Of a stretch of 64,000 nucleotides of DNA, positions 2,921-13,141 are shown in pieces. This DNA comes from Paracoccus kondratievae. Lineage in GTDB: Bacteria; Pseudomonadota; Alphaproteobacteria; Rhodobacterales; Rhodobacteraceae. Within the stretch, counting starts at the first letter, position 1, and every line of letters begins with the position of its first letter. The stretch is from the NCBI RefSeq assembly GCF_009301415.1, contig NZ_CP045072.1, positions 1 to 64,000 on the forward strand. Reading direction: 5' to 3'. The translations under genes were made by a program, and so were the position numbers. The notes below the pieces were generated by a model, which did no database searches, was not told where the DNA came from, and was given only the letters and a program-made list of their open reading frames with translations.

Positions 2921-3763
2921 TTAACCACGGCTCGCGGCACTGTCACCCTGCAGATCACGCAGGATCGCGGGCATCTCGCGCCGTAAAAACGCCCTTCCGC
3001 CCGGCCTCCAACCCAAAGCCTCCAGCCGGGAGCAAAGCGGCAGGCGCAGCACCGAGGCATCGGCGCGCCCGGGCAGGACCGTTCCGCAGCCGGTCAGCCG
3101 CGCCACCTCGGCCAGCAGGTCCTGCCGGTCCAGCACCAGATCGCTGACGTTATAGCTGCCCGCCATCGCGGGATCGGCCAGTACCATCAGCGCCGCATTG
3201 GCAAGGTCCGCACCATGCACCTCGGTCGCGACGCGGGGGGTGGGGGTCTGGCCCTGCAGGAAATCCGCAATCAGCCCGGCCCATTTCTGCGGCGTGCCCG
3301 GGCCATAAACGCCGGTCGGGCGCAGGCTGGCGGTCAGGAAAGCGGCATCCGCCATTTTGAACAGCGCCGCCTCGGCCCGTGCCTTGACCTCGCCATAAAG
3401 ACTGGTCGGCGCGGGGGGCAGATCGTCGGGCAGCGCCATCCCCTCGGGGTGGCCGTCATGCACTGCGCGCGAGGATAGAAACAGCACCCGGCCCACCCCC
3501 TGATCCCGGGCCGCACGGAAAAGCATCAGCGAGCCATCAAGGTTCGCGCGCAAAAATCCCTGCGGATCGTCACCCTCACCGCCGCGATAGCGCCCGGGCA
3601 GGTGGTGAAATGCAGCATGTATCAGCGCATCGCAGCCCGAAAGACCGGGCAGATCGCCCAGCCGCCAACCGGGCAGTGTCAGCACCTCATGCCCCGCCCC
3701 AAGCGCGGCGCGATGCAGCCAGCGCCCGACGAGGCCCGAAGCCCCGGTCACCGCGATCCTCAT
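2921..3763 (-). CDS. sqdC: SqdC-like NAD-dependent epimerase/reductase of the sulfolipid operon
   Basis: Extended short-chain dehydrogenase of 280 residues: N-terminal Rossmann motif T-G-A-S-G-L-V-G (residues 6-13), S-S-R-A in the serine position, and Y-G-E-V-K as the catalytic Tyr-x-x-x-Lys. It is the last gene of the sqdB-sqdD-sqdC array and overlaps sqdD by 4 bp (ATGA). In Rhodobacter sphaeroides the third gene of this array (sqdC) encodes a small reductase-like protein that influences sulfolipid synthesis but whose reaction is not settled. The name here rests on operon position and fold, so the exact reaction is inference. Confidence 0.72.
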   Translation of the reverse strand: MRIAVTGASGLVGRWLHRAALGAGHEVLTLPGWRLGDLPGLSGCDALIHAAFHHLPGRYRGGEGDDPQGFLRANLDGSLMLFRAARDQGVGRVLFLSSRAVHDGHPEGMALPDDLPPAPTSLYGEVKARAEAALFKMADAAFLTASLRPTGVYGPGTPQKWAGLIADFLQGQTPTPRVATEVHGADLANAALMVLADPAMAGSYNVSDLVLDRQDLLAEVARLTGCGTVLPGRADASVLRLPLCSRLEALGWRPGGRAFLRREMPAILRDLQGDSAASRG

Positions 3764-4614
3764 GCCCCGCCCCCTGCCGCACCGGGCGGGGGTGGCAGAT
3801 CGCGCAGATCAGGAACCGGACCGTCGCCGGCATGGGCGCGCCACAGCTCGATCAGCGAGGCAAGCTGCCGGGCCTTGGCATGGTCCTGCCACGGTTTTTC
3901 ATACTGGTAATGCAACACGCGGATATCCTGCCAGCGCCAGAGCTGGGGCAGGTTCAGCCACACATATTGCAGCATGTTGTCGAACACCGGCAGGCCGTGC
4001 CAATTCGGAAAGAAGCTTTCCAGGAACGTCTGGTCGGTCCTCCGCCAGAACTGCCCCGGCTGGTCCAGACGAGCCAGCATTGCCTGAAAGGTCACCGCCG
4101 AAGGTCTCGCCGTGAACACACCCGAATTCAGCCGATGAAAATCGGCCAGCGATTCATAGACATTCGGCGCGGCCGAGAACTCGGGGTAGTCGAAAAGCCG
4201 GTCGATGTTTTGCAAAACGATGGCATCGGCGTCGATAAAGACCACCCGCGCATAATCCAGCTGCCACAGCCGCAGCTTGGCAAAATTGTCCAGGGGCGTG
4301 TGAAAGGGCGGCTTTTCACCCTTGGTAAAGGGCGCTGCGCCATGCAGCCGGTCACGGGCATGCAGCACATTGAACCCCTCGGAGGTCGGCAACAGATCGA
4401 CGCGCACCGGCCGCACATCCAGTGCCCGCAACCCCTCGACCGCATCCGAGGGCAGGTCAGTATAAAGCAGGACCAGATCGGCGCTGGTCCCGGTCCGCCG
4501 TAACGAACGAAACAGCGCCGCCGCCCCGGTCGCATAGTCGGGGTTGGTGGCCAGCGTGACAAAGGCGCGGTCGGACCGCGCCTTGCCTTCTGGGTGAATG
4601 CCTTGGGAAATCAC
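3760..4614 (-). CDS. sqdD: Sulfoquinovosyltransferase SqdD-like (glycosyltransferase family 8)
   Basis: Probable transfer of sulfoquinovose from UDP-sulfoquinovose to diacylglycerol, the last step of SQDG synthesis. The 284-residue protein has a glycogenin-like GT8 fold: an N-terminal A-F-V-T-L-A-T-N segment and the metal/nucleotide D-x-D site in F-I-D-A-D-A-I-V (about residues 127-134), then L-N-S-G-V-F and late H-Y-x-x-x-K-P-W. Rhodobacter SqdD is also glycogenin-like. The start is a GTG overlapping the sqdB stop (GTGA), indicating translational coupling; no clear ribosome binding site precedes it. Confidence 0.85.
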   Translation of the reverse strand: MISQGIHPEGKARSDRAFVTLATNPDYATGAAALFRSLRRTGTSADLVLLYTDLPSDAVEGLRALDVRPVRVDLLPTSEGFNVLHARDRLHGAAPFTKGEKPPFHTPLDNFAKLRLWQLDYARVVFIDADAIVLQNIDRLFDYPEFSAAPNVYESLADFHRLNSGVFTARPSAVTFQAMLARLDQPGQFWRRTDQTFLESFFPNWHGLPVFDNMLQYVWLNLPQLWRWQDIRVLHYQYEKPWQDHAKARQLASLIELWRAHAGDGPVPDLRDLPPPPGAAGGGA

Positions 4615-5828
4615 GATACGGAACGCAGCCTGTTGCCTTCGGGATCATGCTCAATCCGGCGCGCAAGATCGCGGGTCCAGGCCGAGACCGCCGGCACGCG
4701 CGAACGGTCGATGCGATGGGCATATTTGCGCGCCACCTCGACCACCTCGGACAACAGACCTTCGGCAAGAGTAATCGGTTCCAGACCCAGCGCCAGGAAC
4801 TGGTCGTTCTTGACCACCAGCTCATTCTCATCGGCCTCTTTGCGGGGGTTCGGCAAATAGGCGACCTCGGCCCCGGTCAAGCGCGCGATCATCTCGGCCA
4901 GGTCCCGGACGCGGTGGGTCTCGGTCATCTGGTTAAAGATGCGCACCCGTTCCCCGGCCTGCGGGGCGTCGTTCAAGGCCAGCTCGATACAGCGCACCGA
5001 GTCCTGAATATGAATAAAGGCACGCGTCTGGCCGCCGGTGCCATGCACAGTCAGCGGATAGCCGATCGCCGCCTGAATCAGAAAGCGGTTCAGCACCGTG
5101 CCGTAATCGCCATCATAGTCAAAGCGGTTGATCAGCTGTTCGTGCCGGCGGGTCTGATCGGTATGGGTGCCCCAGACGATCCCTTGATGCAGGTCGGTGA
5201 TCCGCAGCCCGTCATTCTGGGCATAGAACTGGAACATGATCTGATCGAGGCTCTTGGTCATGTGATAGACCGAGCCGGGACGGGTCGGGTACAGGATCTG
5301 CTGTTCGCGCGGGCCGGCGGGCGTGTCGATCGAGACATCCAGATAACCCTCGGGGATCGGGGCGCCAACGGTCGAATAGCCATAAACCCCCATGGTACCC
5401 AGATGAACCAAATGGGCATTGATGCCGGTTTCGACCAGCGCAGCCAGCAGATTATGCGTGGCGTTGATGTTGTTGTCGACGGTATAGACCTTGTGGCGGT
5501 CGGTCTTCATCGAATAGGGCGCGGCGCGCTGTTCGGCGAAATGGATGACCGCGTCGGGACGGTATTCGGCCAGCCACGCCTTCAGCCGCTCATATTCGGT
5601 GGCAAGGTTCAAAAGGTGGAAATGGATGCGCCGCCCGGTCTGCTCCTGCCAGATGCGGCAGCGTTCCTGAATCGAATCCATCGGCGTCAGCGATTGCACC
5701 CCCAGCTCGGTGTCGATCCAGCGCCGCGACAGATTGTCCACTATATGGATATCATGGCCCAGGTTCGACAGATGCAGGGCCGTCGGCCAGCCCACGAAAC
5801 CGTCACCGCCAAGAACTGCGATACGCAT
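4611..5828 (-). CDS. sqdB: UDP-sulfoquinovose synthase SqdB
   Basis: Makes UDP-sulfoquinovose from UDP-glucose and sulfite, the committed step of the sulfolipid head group. The 405-residue protein begins M-R-I-A-V-L-G-G-D-G-F-V-G-W-P, the NAD-binding start typical of SqdB/SQD1. The catalytic Tyr and Lys are in S-V-Y-H-M-T-K-S and the active-site Thr in H-L-G-T-M-G-V-Y-G. Start 5828 is chosen by family N-terminus and an AGGAGAAG ribosome site just upstream. It heads sqdB-sqdD-sqdC, all with 4-bp overlaps. An EcfG-type promoter lies 49 bp upstream. Confidence 0.95.
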   Translation of the reverse strand: MRIAVLGGDGFVGWPTALHLSNLGHDIHIVDNLSRRWIDTELGVQSLTPMDSIQERCRIWQEQTGRRIHFHLLNLATEYERLKAWLAEYRPDAVIHFAEQRAAPYSMKTDRHKVYTVDNNINATHNLLAALVETGINAHLVHLGTMGVYGYSTVGAPIPEGYLDVSIDTPAGPREQQILYPTRPGSVYHMTKSLDQIMFQFYAQNDGLRITDLHQGIVWGTHTDQTRRHEQLINRFDYDGDYGTVLNRFLIQAAIGYPLTVHGTGGQTRAFIHIQDSVRCIELALNDAPQAGERVRIFNQMTETHRVRDLAEMIARLTGAEVAYLPNPRKEADENELVVKNDQFLALGLEPITLAEGLLSEVVEVARKYAHRIDRSRVPAVSAWTRDLARRIEHDPEGNRLRSVS

Positions 5829-5876
5829 GGTCTTCTCCTCGCTTTTGCCGGCAGGAATGCGCTGGCAATGTGTCAA

Positions 5877-5902
5877 AACGATAACGCTTTGGTGTCGGTT
5901 CC
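5877..5902 (-). promoter_or_regulatory. Consensus EcfG (general stress response) promoter before sqdB
   Basis: Reading the minus strand, GGAAC (5902-5898) is followed after exactly 17 bases by CGTT (5880-5877), a perfect match to the alphaproteobacterial EcfG consensus GGAAC-N16/17-CGTT. It lies 49 bp before the sqdB start codon in the 153-bp gap shared with the divergent Rrf2 gene. The EcfG sigma factor itself is encoded 6 kb away. Sequence match is direct; activity is inferred. Confidence 0.72.
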
Positions 5903-5981
5903 TAGACGAAATAAAACCCTGCCTGCAAATTCTTGCCGAAATCATTGCATGATGAGACAGTGAACACTAAGGATTTCCTTT

Positions 5982-6428
5982 ATGATCTCGCAGAAAACGA
6001 AATATGCCATCAAGGCTCTGATGGCCCTGGCAGATGAGGTAGCCGCCGGCGGCAATGCCCTGACGATCGAAGAGATCGCGCAGCGATCCGGCGCACCCAA
6101 ACGTTTTCTCGAACATATCATGCTGGAACTGCGCAACGCCGGCTATGTCGGTTCGCGGCGTGGCCGGGCAGGCGGCTATGTGCTGATCAAGCGACCTCAG
6201 GAAATCTCGATTGGCGAGCTTTTGCGTCAGGTGGACGGGCCTATCGCGCCTTTGCCCTGCCTGTCGCGCCGGTCCTACCAACGCTGCGAGGATTGCGAGG
6301 ACGAGGCGACCTGCCGCCTGCGCCGCATGTTCGGACAGGTGTTCTGGTCCTACCTGCTGCTGATCGAATCGCTGACGCTGGAAGATCTGGTGGCCGAGGG
6401 CGACCTGCCGGAAATCAGCCTGGCCTGA
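5982..6428 (+). CDS. Rrf2-family transcriptional regulator with four cysteines
   Basis: DNA-binding regulator of 148 residues. The N-terminal winged helix (about residues 1-65) has the family pattern M-I-S-Q-K-T-K-Y-A-I-K-A-L and G-R-x-G-G-Y. The cysteines C93, C102, C105 and C111 cluster in the region where IscR and NsrR bind an iron-sulfur cluster; CymR-type Rrf2 proteins instead sense cysteine through a partner. The ligand is therefore open. It is transcribed away from sqdB across a 153-bp gap, so control of sulfolipid or sulfur metabolism is a plausible inference. Confidence 0.85.
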   Translation: MISQKTKYAIKALMALADEVAAGGNALTIEEIAQRSGAPKRFLEHIMLELRNAGYVGSRRGRAGGYVLIKRPQEISIGELLRQVDGPIAPLPCLSRRSYQRCEDCEDEATCRLRRMFGQVFWSYLLLIESLTLEDLVAEGDLPEISLA

Positions 6429-6572
6429 GACATTGGTTGCATTCCTGCCATGGCGGCGGGGGACAAAGGGGCGATGCCGCTTGACCCCGGCACGGGCGGG
6501 CGGCAGTTGTGAGGCAACATATCTGTCCGATGCCGGGGTGATGACCCCATTGGAAAGCGCCGCAGGTTCGCC

Positions 6573-8776: not shown

Positions 8777-9703
8777 ATGCAACCGATTAACGAGGGCGGG
8801 CTATTGATCAGGGAATGGTGGCAGTTCCTTCTGGCGATCTTTGAGCGGATGGACAAAATCCACCTCAGCCTGATCGCGGCCGGCGTTGCCTTCTACGCCA
8901 TGTTCGCAGTCTTTCCGGGTCTCGCTGCGCTGTTTGCGATCTGGGGCCTGTGGTACGACCCCCAGGTGATCGAGGAATATGTCCACGCCACCGACGGTTT
9001 CATCCCGCCCAGCGCCGCCGATATCATCTATGGCCAGATCAAAGCGCTGGCGTCGGCCGGGCGCACGCAACTGGGCTGGGCGACGGCGATTTCCTTTCTG
9101 ATCGCCACCGTTTCGGCCCGCGCGGGCGTTGACGGGCTGATCCGGGGGCTGAATGCCGCCTATGGTGTGCGCTCACATTCGACGGTCATGGGTTTTGTCC
9201 TTGCCTATGTGCTGACGCTGGTCATCGTCGCGGTCTGCGCCCTTGGCCTTGCGATGATCGTCATTTTGCCCATCGCCTTTACCCTGCTGCCCGGAGTGCT
9301 TTTGCCCACTGGCTGGCTGACCGGTGCACTGCCGTGGATGGCGATCTTTCTGATCGTGCTGCTGGTGATCGGCATCCTTTACCGCTACGGCCCTAACGTG
9401 AAGGCGCCGCGCACCCCGATCTTTACCTGGGGTTCGGTTTTTGCGGCTCTGGCCTGGGCCGCGGCGTCCTATGGATTTTCGGCCTATCTTGCCAGCTTCA
9501 ACAGCTACAACCGCATCTATGGCTCGATCGGTGCGGTGATCGCACTGCTGATGTGGTTCTATCTGGGCGGGTTCACCGTCATGCTGGGGGCGGTTATCAA
9601 TGTCGAGCTGGCCCGCCGCCGCCGAGTCGTGGCCGCACGAAAACTGCGCCAGGCAGCACGCGAAGCCAGCATTCCAGTCAGCAAGAAAGACCAGGGGGCC
9701 TAA
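8777..9703 (+). CDS. YihY/virulence factor BrkB-family membrane protein
   Basis: Inner-membrane protein of 308 residues, long annotated as ribonuclease BN by mistake; its function is unknown. Typical family features are D-K-I-H-L-S-L-I-A-A-G-V-A-F-Y-A-M near the N-terminus, R-x-G-V-D-G-L-I-R-G-L-N-A-A-Y, about six membrane segments and the late Y-G-S-I-G-A-V-I-A-L-L-M-W-F-Y-L-G signature. The tail is basic and cytoplasmic. The start at 8777 was chosen as the first ATG after dnaQ; upstream open frame is dnaQ shadow. It ends 4 bp inside the convergent kinase gene. Confidence 0.85.
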   Translation: MQPINEGGLLIREWWQFLLAIFERMDKIHLSLIAAGVAFYAMFAVFPGLAALFAIWGLWYDPQVIEEYVHATDGFIPPSAADIIYGQIKALASAGRTQLGWATAISFLIATVSARAGVDGLIRGLNAAYGVRSHSTVMGFVLAYVLTLVIVAVCALGLAMIVILPIAFTLLPGVLLPTGWLTGALPWMAIFLIVLLVIGILYRYGPNVKAPRTPIFTWGSVFAALAWAAASYGFSAYLASFNSYNRIYGSIGAVIALLMWFYLGGFTVMLGAVINVELARRRRVVAARKLRQAAREASIPVSKKDQGA

Positions 9704-11481
9704 TGTCGCGCACCCGGTCGTGCGGCCGAGGTCAGCACCACCGGCGGCGTCTCGACCGGTTCACGCTTGTGCATATGCTCGACCCGGAAACGCAGGGTAA
9801 GAAGGAAACGGCCATCACCGGTCTCTTGCCGCGCCTCGCCCTCAAGCTGGGTCGAAAAGGCCTCGATCAGCTGGCTGCCAAGCCCCGTTCCTTCGGCAAG
9901 GCTGGTGGTCCCCAGCGAGTTCTCGACCTCCAGAACCGCATGTTGCGGCCCGTCTGCGCGCAGCGAGACCCGCACCCAAGGCTCACCCTCCGGGTCTGAC
10001 GCGCCGGAATATTTCAGCGCATTGGTAAATGCCTCGGTCGCAAGCAGGCTCAGCGGGACCGCCTGATCCGGCATCAGCTCAAGCGGCTCAAGCCGGGTGT
10101 CGATACGCAGCCCCGCCCCCGGACCCAGCGTCGCATTGGCCATCTGGTTGATGATGTCCTTGATCAGCCGGTCGGCATGGACCGAGTCCAGATGCTCGGC
10201 CTGATAGAGGTTGCGATAGATTGTGGCCAAAGACGCAACCCGGTCCTGAACCGACCGCAGCACCCGGCGCGCGTCGTCGTGGTCGATTACCCGGATCTGC
10301 ATGTTGATGATCGAAGCGATCAGTTGCAGGTTGTTCTTGACCCGGTGATGGACCTCTTTCAGCAAGACGGTCTTTTCGTTGACTGCCGCCTCCATCGCCT
10401 CTTCGTCACGGATCAGGATGCGGGCCATATTGTGGAAAGTCTGGCTCATATCCTCGATTTCGGCCGGGGCGTCGATCAGAACCGGGGGTGGGGCCGAGCG
10501 GTCGCCGATGGCAAAGCGGCGCATCTGGCCACGCAATTCGCGGATATGACGCAACACCAGCCGGTAGACGGCGAAATAGGCAACGGCAAGCGAAGCCGCC
10601 CACAGGATCAGCGGCAGGATCAGCGCCGTGCGCCGGGTGATGTCGATGCCGGTGATGCCGGATTCGGCGCGGTTCCACGAACCCAGCGCATAGACCAGCC
10701 CCGGCACCACCGGCACGACGCTATAAACCCGCCGTTCGCCAGAGTTCGAGATGTCGCGGAAGGTGGTCTCGCTGCGCGACAAAAGCGAGGGCAGGGATTT
10801 GCCGCGCGGCAGAACCTCGGTGATGTCACCGTCACCCTCGCGGTCCGAAGAGATCACCTCGCCCTGGTTGTTAAAGGTCAGGATGCGCGCGCCATCCGTC
10901 TCAAGCCCCGACACATGGGCCGAGCGCAGCAGATCATGCGACATCGAAACGGTGACAAAGCCCAAAAGCTCTACCCCGCTGTAAAGCGGCTGGATAACCA
11001 CCACCACCGACCTTCCGGTGACCGGACCGTGCTCGCTGGTGGTGACCAGCGTGCCGGGGCTTTCGATGAATTGCTGAAAGGCCGGCGTGCCACTGAGATC
11101 ATGCACCCCCCGCACCGAGGAACATTCCGTCACCCCGTCCAGCCGGGTGAAGCCGGCATAGACAAAGTTCACCGTGCGCTGCACCAGCCCGCGCATGATA
11201 TCCGAACAGGCTTGCGGACGGTCCATCGTCTCAAGCACCGCCGGACCCAGCGCATCTGCGGTGCCGAGCGCGCTTTGCAGCAACGCCCGCTCACCCGCAG
11301 CCGAAGTGGCGGTGCGACCCAAAAGCGCGATCTCGGCCGAACGTTCATATTCACGCGACAGATGCAGCGTCTGAATGACCGAGATCAGGCCGATGGGCAA
11401 AATCGCCACCGACAGGAGGCCGCCCAGCCGAAAACCAAGGCCCTTGCTGAATTCCAGCCTGTCCAGAAAGCGCCGCAGCAC
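9700..11481 (-). CDS. HisKA_2-type sensor histidine kinase, probable general stress response kinase (PhyK-like)
   Basis: Membrane sensor of 593 residues. One hydrophobic segment near residues 20-40 and a second near 290 frame an extracytoplasmic sensing region of about 250 residues. A HAMP-like linker precedes the phosphoacceptor helix with E-V-H-H-R-V-K-N-N-L-Q-L, the HRxN signature of the HisKA_2 family, then an ATP-binding domain ending G-T-G-L-G-S-Q-L-I-E-A-F. It lies 9 bp downstream of ecfG in the nepR-ecfG array, and such kinases control PhyR phosphorylation. The stimulus is unknown. Confidence 0.87.
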   Translation of the reverse strand: MLRRFLDRLEFSKGLGFRLGGLLSVAILPIGLISVIQTLHLSREYERSAEIALLGRTATSAAGERALLQSALGTADALGPAVLETMDRPQACSDIMRGLVQRTVNFVYAGFTRLDGVTECSSVRGVHDLSGTPAFQQFIESPGTLVTTSEHGPVTGRSVVVVIQPLYSGVELLGFVTVSMSHDLLRSAHVSGLETDGARILTFNNQGEVISSDREGDGDITEVLPRGKSLPSLLSRSETTFRDISNSGERRVYSVVPVVPGLVYALGSWNRAESGITGIDITRRTALILPLILWAASLAVAYFAVYRLVLRHIRELRGQMRRFAIGDRSAPPPVLIDAPAEIEDMSQTFHNMARILIRDEEAMEAAVNEKTVLLKEVHHRVKNNLQLIASIINMQIRVIDHDDARRVLRSVQDRVASLATIYRNLYQAEHLDSVHADRLIKDIINQMANATLGPGAGLRIDTRLEPLELMPDQAVPLSLLATEAFTNALKYSGASDPEGEPWVRVSLRADGPQHAVLEVENSLGTTSLAEGTGLGSQLIEAFSTQLEGEARQETGDGRFLLTLRFRVEHMHKREPVETPPVVLTSAARPGARH

Positions 11482-11490
11482 GATCGAAAC

Positions 11491-12084
11491 TCAGCGCAGA
11501 ATCGGGGTATTCAGTGCCATGACAGCCAGAGTGGTACGATCCGTCATCTCGATTTCTTCGCCCTCTTCCAGATGCAGAAGCTCGGCCAGGCGACGGCGGC
11601 CCCGGTTGGCGCGCGACTTGACCGTGCCCACGGCAACACCGGTCATGGCCGCCGCTTCCTCATAGGAAAAGCCCGAAGCGCCCACCAGAATCAAGGCCTC
11701 GCGCTGCTCGTCGGGCAGCTGTTCAAAGGCCACGCGGAAATCATTGAGCGCAAGACGGCCGTCATGGTCGGGGCGGGTGGCCTGCCGGGCGGCATGGATG
11801 CCGTCGGTGTCGTTCACCTCGCGCCGCGTCTTGCGCCGGGCAGAATAGAAGGTGTTTCGCAAAATGGTGAAAAGCCAGGCGCGCAGATTGGTTCCGGGCT
11901 GGAATTTTTCGATATTTGCCCAGGCCTTAACGATGGTGTCCTGCACCAGATCGTCAGCCGAGGACCCGTCACGCGTCAGCGACAGGGCAAAGGCGCGCAG
12001 CGCAGGCAGGTGCTCGACCAACTCGTCCCGAGGATCTGCATGGCCTTCGGGACGGGCGGGGCGCGCCGATTTCTGATCGGTCAT
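11491..12084 (-). CDS. ecfG: ECF sigma factor EcfG, general stress response
   Basis: Sigma factor that directs RNA polymerase to GGAAC / CGTT promoters. The protein has sigma region 2 with D-D-L-V-Q-D-T-I-V-K-A-W-A-N and region 4 with L-P-x-E-Q-R-E-A-L-I-L-V-G-A-x-G-F-S-Y-E-E-A-A and G-T-V-K-S-R-x-N-R-G-R. An AGGAG sits 8 bases before the ATG at 12084, which decides that start; an in-frame GTG at 12093 overlapping the nepR stop is the alternative (three residues longer). It is held inactive by NepR until PhyR~P removes the anti-sigma factor. Confidence 0.92.
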   Translation of the reverse strand: MTDQKSARPARPEGHADPRDELVEHLPALRAFALSLTRDGSSADDLVQDTIVKAWANIEKFQPGTNLRAWLFTILRNTFYSARRKTRREVNDTDGIHAARQATRPDHDGRLALNDFRVAFEQLPDEQREALILVGASGFSYEEAAAMTGVAVGTVKSRANRGRRRLAELLHLEEGEEIEMTDRTTLAVMALNTPILR

Positions 12085-12089
12085 CCAGT

Positions 12090-12236
12090 TCACTCCTGCT
12101 CGCGCAGTTTTTCCAGCAGTTGCAGGAATTTGTCAGGAACTTGCTGGGATACATCCTGTTCGTAAACGCGGCGCAGATTTTCGTCGATCTGCTTCTGGAT
12201 GGCTGCTCGCCTGCGTTCCTCACGCCTGGTATTCAT
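12090..12236 (-). CDS. nepR: Anti-sigma factor NepR (48 residues)
   Basis: Small helical anti-sigma factor that binds EcfG and is released by phosphorylated PhyR. Translation of the minus strand from the ATG at 12236 gives 48 residues. Residues 17-46 follow the NepR core: I-D-E-N-L-R-R-V-Y-E, then V-P-D-K-F-L-Q-L-L-E-K-L-R. The position between phyR and ecfG is the standard one. Its stop overlaps the alternative GTG of ecfG (GTGA). The N-terminus is arginine- and glutamate-rich. An EcfG-type promoter sits 40 bp upstream, so the module is probably autoregulated. Confidence 0.93.
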   Translation of the reverse strand: MNTRREERRRAAIQKQIDENLRRVYEQDVSQQVPDKFLQLLEKLREQE

Positions 12237-12275
12237 TTTTTAGTTATTCCCGGTAATCTTGTGCGCACGTTGCCT

Positions 12276-12301
12276 AACCGTTACCTATCCAATCAGGTTC
12301 C
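12276..12301 (-). promoter_or_regulatory. EcfG-type promoter before nepR-ecfG
   Basis: On the minus strand GGAAC (12301-12297), a 17-base spacer and GGTT (12279-12276) match the EcfG promoter consensus with one deviation in the -10 element. The -10 ends 40 bp before the nepR start. Autoregulation of nepR-ecfG by EcfG is usual in this group. Confidence 0.75.
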
Positions 12302-12334
12302 ATCACACGACGCATTTTTTTTGAGGTATCCCAA

Positions 12335-13141
12335 ATGACCGCAGCGGATCTTGCCCAGTCCATCAGCCGGGAACTTCCCTACCTGCGGCGCTATGCGCGT
12401 GCACTGACCGGCAGTCAGACCGCCGGCGACAATTACGCCGCCGCGACGCTAGAAGCAATCCTGTCCGATCGCAGCCTGATGGATGGCGAGGATGACACCC
12501 GCATCGGGTTGTTCCGCACCTTCCACGCGATCTGGCAAAGCTCGGGCCAGCCCGTCGATATCGAGGCCCAGTCCCCTCGCGAAGCCCGCGCCCAGGCCCA
12601 TCTGCGCAGCCTCACCCCGAATTCGCGTGAGGCGCTGCTTTTGCGTACGATCGAGGAACTGCGCTACGACCAGATCGCCCGCGTCATGCAATGCACCCAA
12701 CCCGAAGCCGAAGAGCTGGTGCAGATCGCACTGAACGAAATGAGCCGCTCGATTGCTGGCAAGGTCATGGTGATCGAGGATGAAACCATCATCGCCATGG
12801 ACCTGAAGGGCATTGTTCAGTCGATGGGCCATGATGTGACCGGCATTGCCCGCACCCATAGCGCCGCCGTCGATCTGGCCAAGCAAAAGCGCCCCGACCT
12901 GATCCTTGCCGATATCCAGCTGGCAGACGGTTCATCGGGGATTGATGCGGTGAACGAACTGCTGCGCGACCTTGGCGACATCCCGGTGATCTTCATCACC
13001 GCCTTCCCCGAGCGGCTGCTGACCGGCGACCGGCCCGAGCCGGCCTTCCTGATCTCAAAGCCCTATTCCGAAGAGCAGGTGCGTTCGGCAGTCAGCCAAG
13101 CCATGTTCTTTGCCACGACCGAAGGGCTGAGCGCCGCCTGA
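12335..13141 (+). CDS. phyR: General stress response regulator PhyR
   Basis: Partner-switching regulator. The N-terminal half (about residues 1-135) mimics sigma regions 2 and 4 and sequesters NepR. The C-terminal receiver domain starts at V-M-V-I-E-D-E (about 144-150), with the phosphoacceptor Asp at about residue 193 in L-A-D-I-Q-L and the conserved Lys in S-K-P-Y. It is divergent from nepR-ecfG across a 98-bp gap. A GAGG ribosome site precedes the ATG. Full length (268 residues) for the family. Confidence 0.95.
   Translation: MTAADLAQSISRELPYLRRYARALTGSQTAGDNYAAATLEAILSDRSLMDGEDDTRIGLFRTFHAIWQSSGQPVDIEAQSPREARAQAHLRSLTPNSREALLLRTIEELRYDQIARVMQCTQPEAEELVQIALNEMSRSIAGKVMVIEDETIIAMDLKGIVQSMGHDVTGIARTHSAAVDLAKQKRPDLILADIQLADGSSGIDAVNELLRDLGDIPVIFITAFPERLLTGDRPEPAFLISKPYSEEQVRSAVSQAMFFATTEGLSAA

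Follow-up and report, generated by a model that had tools for sequence, protein, structure and literature searches.

The window, that is, the whole stretch of 64,000 nucleotides of Paracoccus kondratievae DNA that was analysed, carries a sulfolipid operon, sqdBDC, on its minus strand. The first gene, sqdB (4611-5828), encodes a UDP-sulfoquinovose synthase; its best solved relative is SQD1 (E 1.4e-97), and its match to NF041015, the NCBI family for UDP-sulfoquinovose synthase, lies below the cut-off (333.5 of 575 bits). The first ATG in the open frame is at 5945. Read from ATG 5828 (MRIAVLGG), SqdB has 405 amino acids and its alignment begins at residue 1 in the listed full-length relatives. 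The next gene encodes a family 8 glycosyltransferase resembling SqdD (3760-4614, minus strand; PF01501 and gene order) and shares 4 bp with the end of sqdB, and the third encodes an NAD-dependent epimerase/reductase resembling SqdC (2921-3763, minus strand; PF01370 and gene order). A gene for an Rrf2-family regulator (5982-6428, plus strand; PF02082 and TIGR00738, above cut-off) diverges from sqdB and has one common intergenic region with it, a feature absent from the sequence-only reading that preceded this analysis.

That reading had placed a general stress response promoter, GGAAC-N17-CGTT, upstream of sqdB. The sequence GGAACCGACACCAAAGCGTTATCGTT does occupy exactly 5877-5902 of the minus strand, with a GGAAC -35 element at 5898-5902, a CGTT -10 element at 5877-5880 and a spacing of 17, and we annotate it as the predicted EcfG promoter of sqdBDC. 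Because the sqdB start that fits the relatives is 5828 and not 5945, the motif is intergenic, with 49 bp between it and the likely ATG. The arrangement is that of an EcfG-type promoter, with GGAAC and nGTT 16-18 bp apart and close upstream of a gene start. No known RNA, riboswitches included, was found in the leader by an Rfam scan of 5500-6500 at gathering thresholds.

Taken alone, this single match is no more than chance: the window contains one GGAAC-N15-19-CGTT site against a mean of 2.2 in shuffles. Across the whole genome, 42 GGAAC/CGTT sites with N16-17 were counted, compared with 115 for a backwards-read control pattern and 29 for a spacing of 20-21; we dropped this count as evidence for a promoter, as 42 against 115 in the backwards control is no excess. 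What raises the sqdB motif above chance is its conservation in relatives.

EcfG, NepR and PhyR are all encoded in the genome. Their genes occupy 11491-13141, and about 5.7 kb separates this locus from the start of sqdB. The general stress sigma factor gene ecfG (11491-12093, minus strand) scores 340 bits against NF009198 (cut-off 270), nepR (12090-12236, minus strand) encodes an anti-sigma factor of 48 residues (PF18557, above cut-off), and phyR (12335-13141, plus strand) encodes the anti-anti-sigma response regulator (NF006623, 365 bits, cut-off 240); solved relatives also back the identities of PhyR and the sigma factor. The gene for a PhyK-like histidine kinase of the HisKA_2 type (9700-11481, minus strand) matches PF07568 above cut-off and NF051872 below it (210.6 of 750 bits). 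An EcfG-type motif, GGAAC-N17-GGTT (12276-12301, minus strand), also precedes nepR-ecfG and is predicted to serve as an autoregulatory promoter. Since sigma factors act in trans, the proximity of this locus to sqdB is no evidence by itself. Two other ECF-type sigma genes were counted as Pfam matches above cut-off, one more PF04542 match lying below it, and each of the two adjoins FecR/DUF4880 genes. On account of these neighbours, EcfG is the only stress-type ECF factor seen, and we judged it unlikely that another ECF sigma factor acts at the sqdB motif.

Conservation of the EcfG-type motif in Paracoccus

We searched 125 Paracoccus genomes for SqdB and compared 58 that have a near full-length, 84-100% identical protein, together with 12 of those whose SqdB is 66-70% identical. 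The distant type occurs in about half of the SqdB-bearing Paracoccus genomes; neither at three such loci (L187, L189 and L195) nor, within the 16-kb stretch, at three loci with an 86-87% identical SqdB (L177, L178 and L180) did we detect a relative of sqdD or sqdC. An rrf2 gene diverges from sqdB in 29 of the 58 genomes and was not found in the compared stretches of the other 29 Paracoccus. In 28 of the 29 genomes of this rrf2 branch, ecfG lies at most 8 kb from sqdB on the same contig, the remaining one being split between contigs, and in the other 29 Paracoccus with a near SqdB, no ecfG shares a contig with sqdB at a distance of up to 40 kb. The closeness of ecfG and sqdB is a trait common to the rrf2 branch.

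When the regions upstream of sqdB in related Paracoccus were scanned, GGAAC-N17/18-[CA]GTT was present at the same place in 24 of the 29 rrf2-branch genomes, which are related, so that the counts are not independent; about 0.1 would be expected from shuffles. With two pairs of identical regions each taken once, 22 of 27 distinct upstream rows carry the motif. GGAAC begins 74-86 bp before sqdB in the 24 genomes, and the pair reads N17-CGTT in 10, N17-AGTT in 4 and N18-CGTT in 10 of them, the spacing of 18 being one longer than in the local nepR promoters. Five genomes have no pair in place; one of these, L125, shows a stray match at -127. The N17-CGTT form is present at the sqdB locus of Paracoccus thiocyanatus (L036). 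The motif was not kept outside the branch, where its loose form was found upstream of sqdB in 3/29 other Paracoccus, 0/12 genomes with a distant SqdB, and 1/21 and 0/50 other loci, the last set comprising sqdB loci mostly from Rhizobiales (L061-L110). Conservation of the predicted -35/-10 pair is limited to one Paracoccus branch.

Similar motifs precede two other genes across the genus. GGAAC-N16-18-nGTT lies upstream of nepR in 28 of 30 Paracoccus loci, the misses being L208 and L209. Of 30 loci of a LysM gene, one lacked the gene start, and in 26 of the remaining 29 the motif precedes the gene with N16 or N17. From these nepR and LysM promoters, it follows that the Paracoccus EcfG motif is as in other Alphaproteobacteria, whose EcfG (ECF15, RpoE2 or SigT) promoters are described with the same GGAAC, spacing and GTT; the available text of two reports gives GGAAC-N17-20-GTT for Sphingomonas melonis (PMC6599016) and GGAACN16-17cgTT for an EcfG-type (RpoE2) promoter in a Rhizobium (PMC6011840).

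In an alternative explanation, the main control comes from a different factor, for example the divergent Rrf2 regulator, and GGAAC is part of its site. The rrf2 gene adjoins sqdB in all 29 branch genomes, the only compared Paracoccus stretches in which it was found, and a block near it, TTGCAATGATTTCG, also appears conserved. However, GGAAC and nGTT at promoter spacing match the nepR and LysM promoters, which Rrf2 has no reason to target, and we consider this explanation barely credible. Between rrf2 and the EcfG site, a block resembling TTGCAATGATTTCGG (5925-5955 of the window) is apparently conserved across the majority of the 29 genomes with the rrf2-sqdB arrangement (L111-L139), perhaps as an Rrf2 operator or as the promoter of rrf2.

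The Pho box and the two promoter registers

A Pho box that had been overlooked, CGTTATC-GTTT-TGACACA-TT, lies at 5886-5867 on the minus strand and contains the -10 CGTT. It is composed of two 7-mers with an 11-bp period, the form described for PHO boxes as 11-nt direct repeats of 7-mers (PMC4415409), and reached a score of 8.7, which none of 60 shuffles equalled, with a matrix built from 26 of 30 Paracoccus pstS promoters (L314, L320, L321 and L322, in which the anchor pattern was not found, were excluded). The pstS promoter of this genome reads TGTCGCT-GAAC-TGTTACA; by eye, many Paracoccus pstS promoters (L293-L319) contain roughly four Pho half-sites that recur every 11 bp. Run over the 150 bp before sqdB, with p derived from each region's own 60 shuffles, the matrix identified a Pho box at p<=0.05 in 28 of the 29 rrf2-branch genomes, and in 27 of them the best match lay between -58 and -63. 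Matches were found in 2/30 nepR control regions, 20/29 other Paracoccus, 4/12 genomes with the distant type of SqdB, and 13/22 and 21/50 other loci.

A scan of the minus strand from 5700 to 6100 gave no sigma-70-type site; GCGCATT, downstream of the Pho box, is conserved yet poor as a sigma-70 -10. This element (offsets +13 to +18 from TGACACA) and TCG[TC]CA upstream of the box (offsets -20 to -15) show few changes on the tree in L111-L139 and are accounted for by neither the EcfG nor the Pho motif.

Measured from the conserved TGACACA of the Pho box, GGAAC is kept in 25 of the 29 genomes in two registers, at -27 in 15 genomes (register A, to which the window belongs) and at -34 or -33 in 10 (register B), and is absent in 4. 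The -10 element follows these positions: nGTT at -5, the place occupied here by 5877-5880, is found in 13/15 register-A genomes versus 0/10 in register B, and CGTT at -11 in 10/10 register-B genomes versus 4/15 in register A and 0/4 of those without GGAAC (Fisher p 2e-5 and 5e-5 for the pairing, a guide only because kinship is ignored). The predicted -35 and -10 elements shift together between registers; in register B, conservation of CGTT may come partly from the Pho box itself. Because one register-A genome, L137, is placed apart from the main group on a tree with low support at several nodes, the shift may have occurred more than once.

An overlap of this kind could mean that the conserved block is a PhoB-dependent promoter only and that the Pho box together with chance produced the EcfG match. 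In the window the -10 CGTT falls within the Pho box, in register B it is the first Pho half-site, sqdB is described as part of the Pho regulon of Sinorhizobium meliloti (PMC10315480), and the Pho-type matches at sqdB in other Paracoccus mostly occur without an EcfG motif. Against this reading, GGAAC is kept although it stands outside the Pho box, and the register-A GTT sits in the Pho spacer, a stretch that differs in the pstS boxes and in register B. We regard PhoB-only control as unlikely.

The motif and its conservation might instead reflect shared ancestry and chance without function, given that the single match is within chance and that most of the 42 genome sites lie inside genes. Column conservation within the register subsets was discarded as circular, the subsets having been picked by GGAAC, and whole-set counts and a neutral simulation were used in its place. 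When the simulated rate was set to that of the intergenic columns on either side (mean of 10.1 changes on the tree, an estimate that misalignment may have inflated; scale 6), GGAAC was present in a mean of 1.5 of 29 genomes and in at most 8 over 2,000 runs. At the rate of sqdB/rrf2 coding DNA (scale 1), the mean was 13.3 of 29, and 51% of runs kept GGAAC in at least 15 of 29 genomes. As the outcome differs strongly between scales, how much weight this test carries depends on the assumed rate. The scale-6 runs and the joint shift of the -35 and -10 elements argue against a functionless motif, which we hold to be very improbable.

A composite promoter model for sqdBDC

Based on the conserved sequence elements, sqdBDC probably has a composite promoter, in which an EcfG promoter is laid over phosphate control and does not replace it. 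Both the EcfG-type promoter and the Pho box are present at fixed places and are kept in the Paracoccus branch. The sequence-only reading had proposed that EcfG controls the sulfolipid operon; that proposal is favoured by the retention of the predicted promoter in 24 of 29 genomes, by the pairing of its -35 and -10 elements and by a motif shared with nepR and LysM promoters, but the replacement of phosphate control that it implied does not agree with a Pho box overlapping the -10.

According to the composite model, stress would cause PhyR to bind NepR and thereby free EcfG, and EcfG-RNA polymerase would start sqdBDC at GGAAC-N17-CGTT (5902-5877). Under phosphate shortage, phosphorylated PhoB would act via the Pho box (5886-5867) on the same promoter region. 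We infer that the EcfG holoenzyme and PhoB both bind at the sqdB promoter, and they would probably use separate start sites, one for EcfG near 5870 and a PhoB-dependent one further downstream. The latter position is predicted from an overlap rule in S. meliloti, where 16 of 33 PhoB boxes with mapped starts are described as overlapping the -35 of the promoter that they serve (PMC3616915). Because their sites overlap, EcfG and PhoB would be mutually exclusive. A further step, which we put forward tentatively and lean against, is a two-input switch: EcfG polymerase and PhoB would compete for overlapping DNA, each starting the sulfolipid genes from its own site, the EcfG promoter having slid by ~6-7 bp, -35 and -10 together, over a fixed Pho box. 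If true, the sliding pair would offer a natural case in which to study the gain of a sigma-factor promoter atop an older control.

Sulfolipid is usually viewed as a phospholipid substitute under phosphate shortage. Direct EcfG control, if true, would put it in the general stress response and tie membrane lipid make-up to two stresses. It could also connect sulfolipid control to the membrane-stress role of PhyR in Rhodobacter sphaeroides, whose PhyR-NepR-EcfG cascade has the same locus layout; there, loss of phyR function by mutation is described as causing sensitivity to ethanol and SDS/EDTA, with a rise of ecfG mRNA in membrane stress only, and the available text holds no sulfolipid link (PMC5830050).

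The operon is a new target within a known promoter class, and the Pho-box overlay is the unusual part: compared with known EcfG promoters, the predicted one here serves sulfolipid genes and has its -10 within a Pho box. S. meliloti sqdB is described as Pho-controlled as well (PMC10315480), with 11-bp 7-mer repeats (PMC4415409), whereas here the predicted EcfG promoter overlaps the box, a motif seen at none of the 50 sqdB loci L061-L110. The aioXSR operon of Rhizobium NT-26, with RpoD and RpoE2 promoters, likewise has a general-stress promoter beside a second one; in contrast, its second promoter is RpoD-type and its target is the regulation of arsenite oxidation, and the available text gave 0 hits for phosphate or PhoB and no phosphate input (PMC6011840). 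Among open-licence PMC papers, we found none treating both EcfG and sulfolipid, and EcfG control of sulfolipid was absent among the matches listed in a broader literature search of the same collection.

Other EcfG-type sites in the genome

Eight of the 42 motif sites were placed by script 33-76 bp before a gene on the same strand, or 10 of 42, at 30-80 bp, when the sqdB and rpoH sites were placed by hand, compared with 1 of 29 sites for the 20-21 spacing control, which was placed by script only, hand placement being confined to the motif sites. This positional enrichment (Fisher p 0.022 for 10/42 versus 1/29; p 0.073 for the script counts, 8/42 versus 1/29) gives weak support to the sites as EcfG promoters. 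Among the other promoter-placed sites, conservation was compared at a single one, the LysM site. The genes behind them include those for an RpoH-like sigma factor, DUF1269, a LysM protein, an OmpA-type lipoprotein, TelA, LolA, LpxB, GlpX and a 3-dmu-9 protein. Sites before envelope genes (LysM protein, OmpA-type lipoprotein, LolA and LpxB) fit an envelope-centred response. The sigma factor gene, which we take to be RpoH-like from its sequence, has GGAAC-N17-CGTT ~40 bp before its likely start (L010, reverse strand, and L143), which is what an EcfG target should show.
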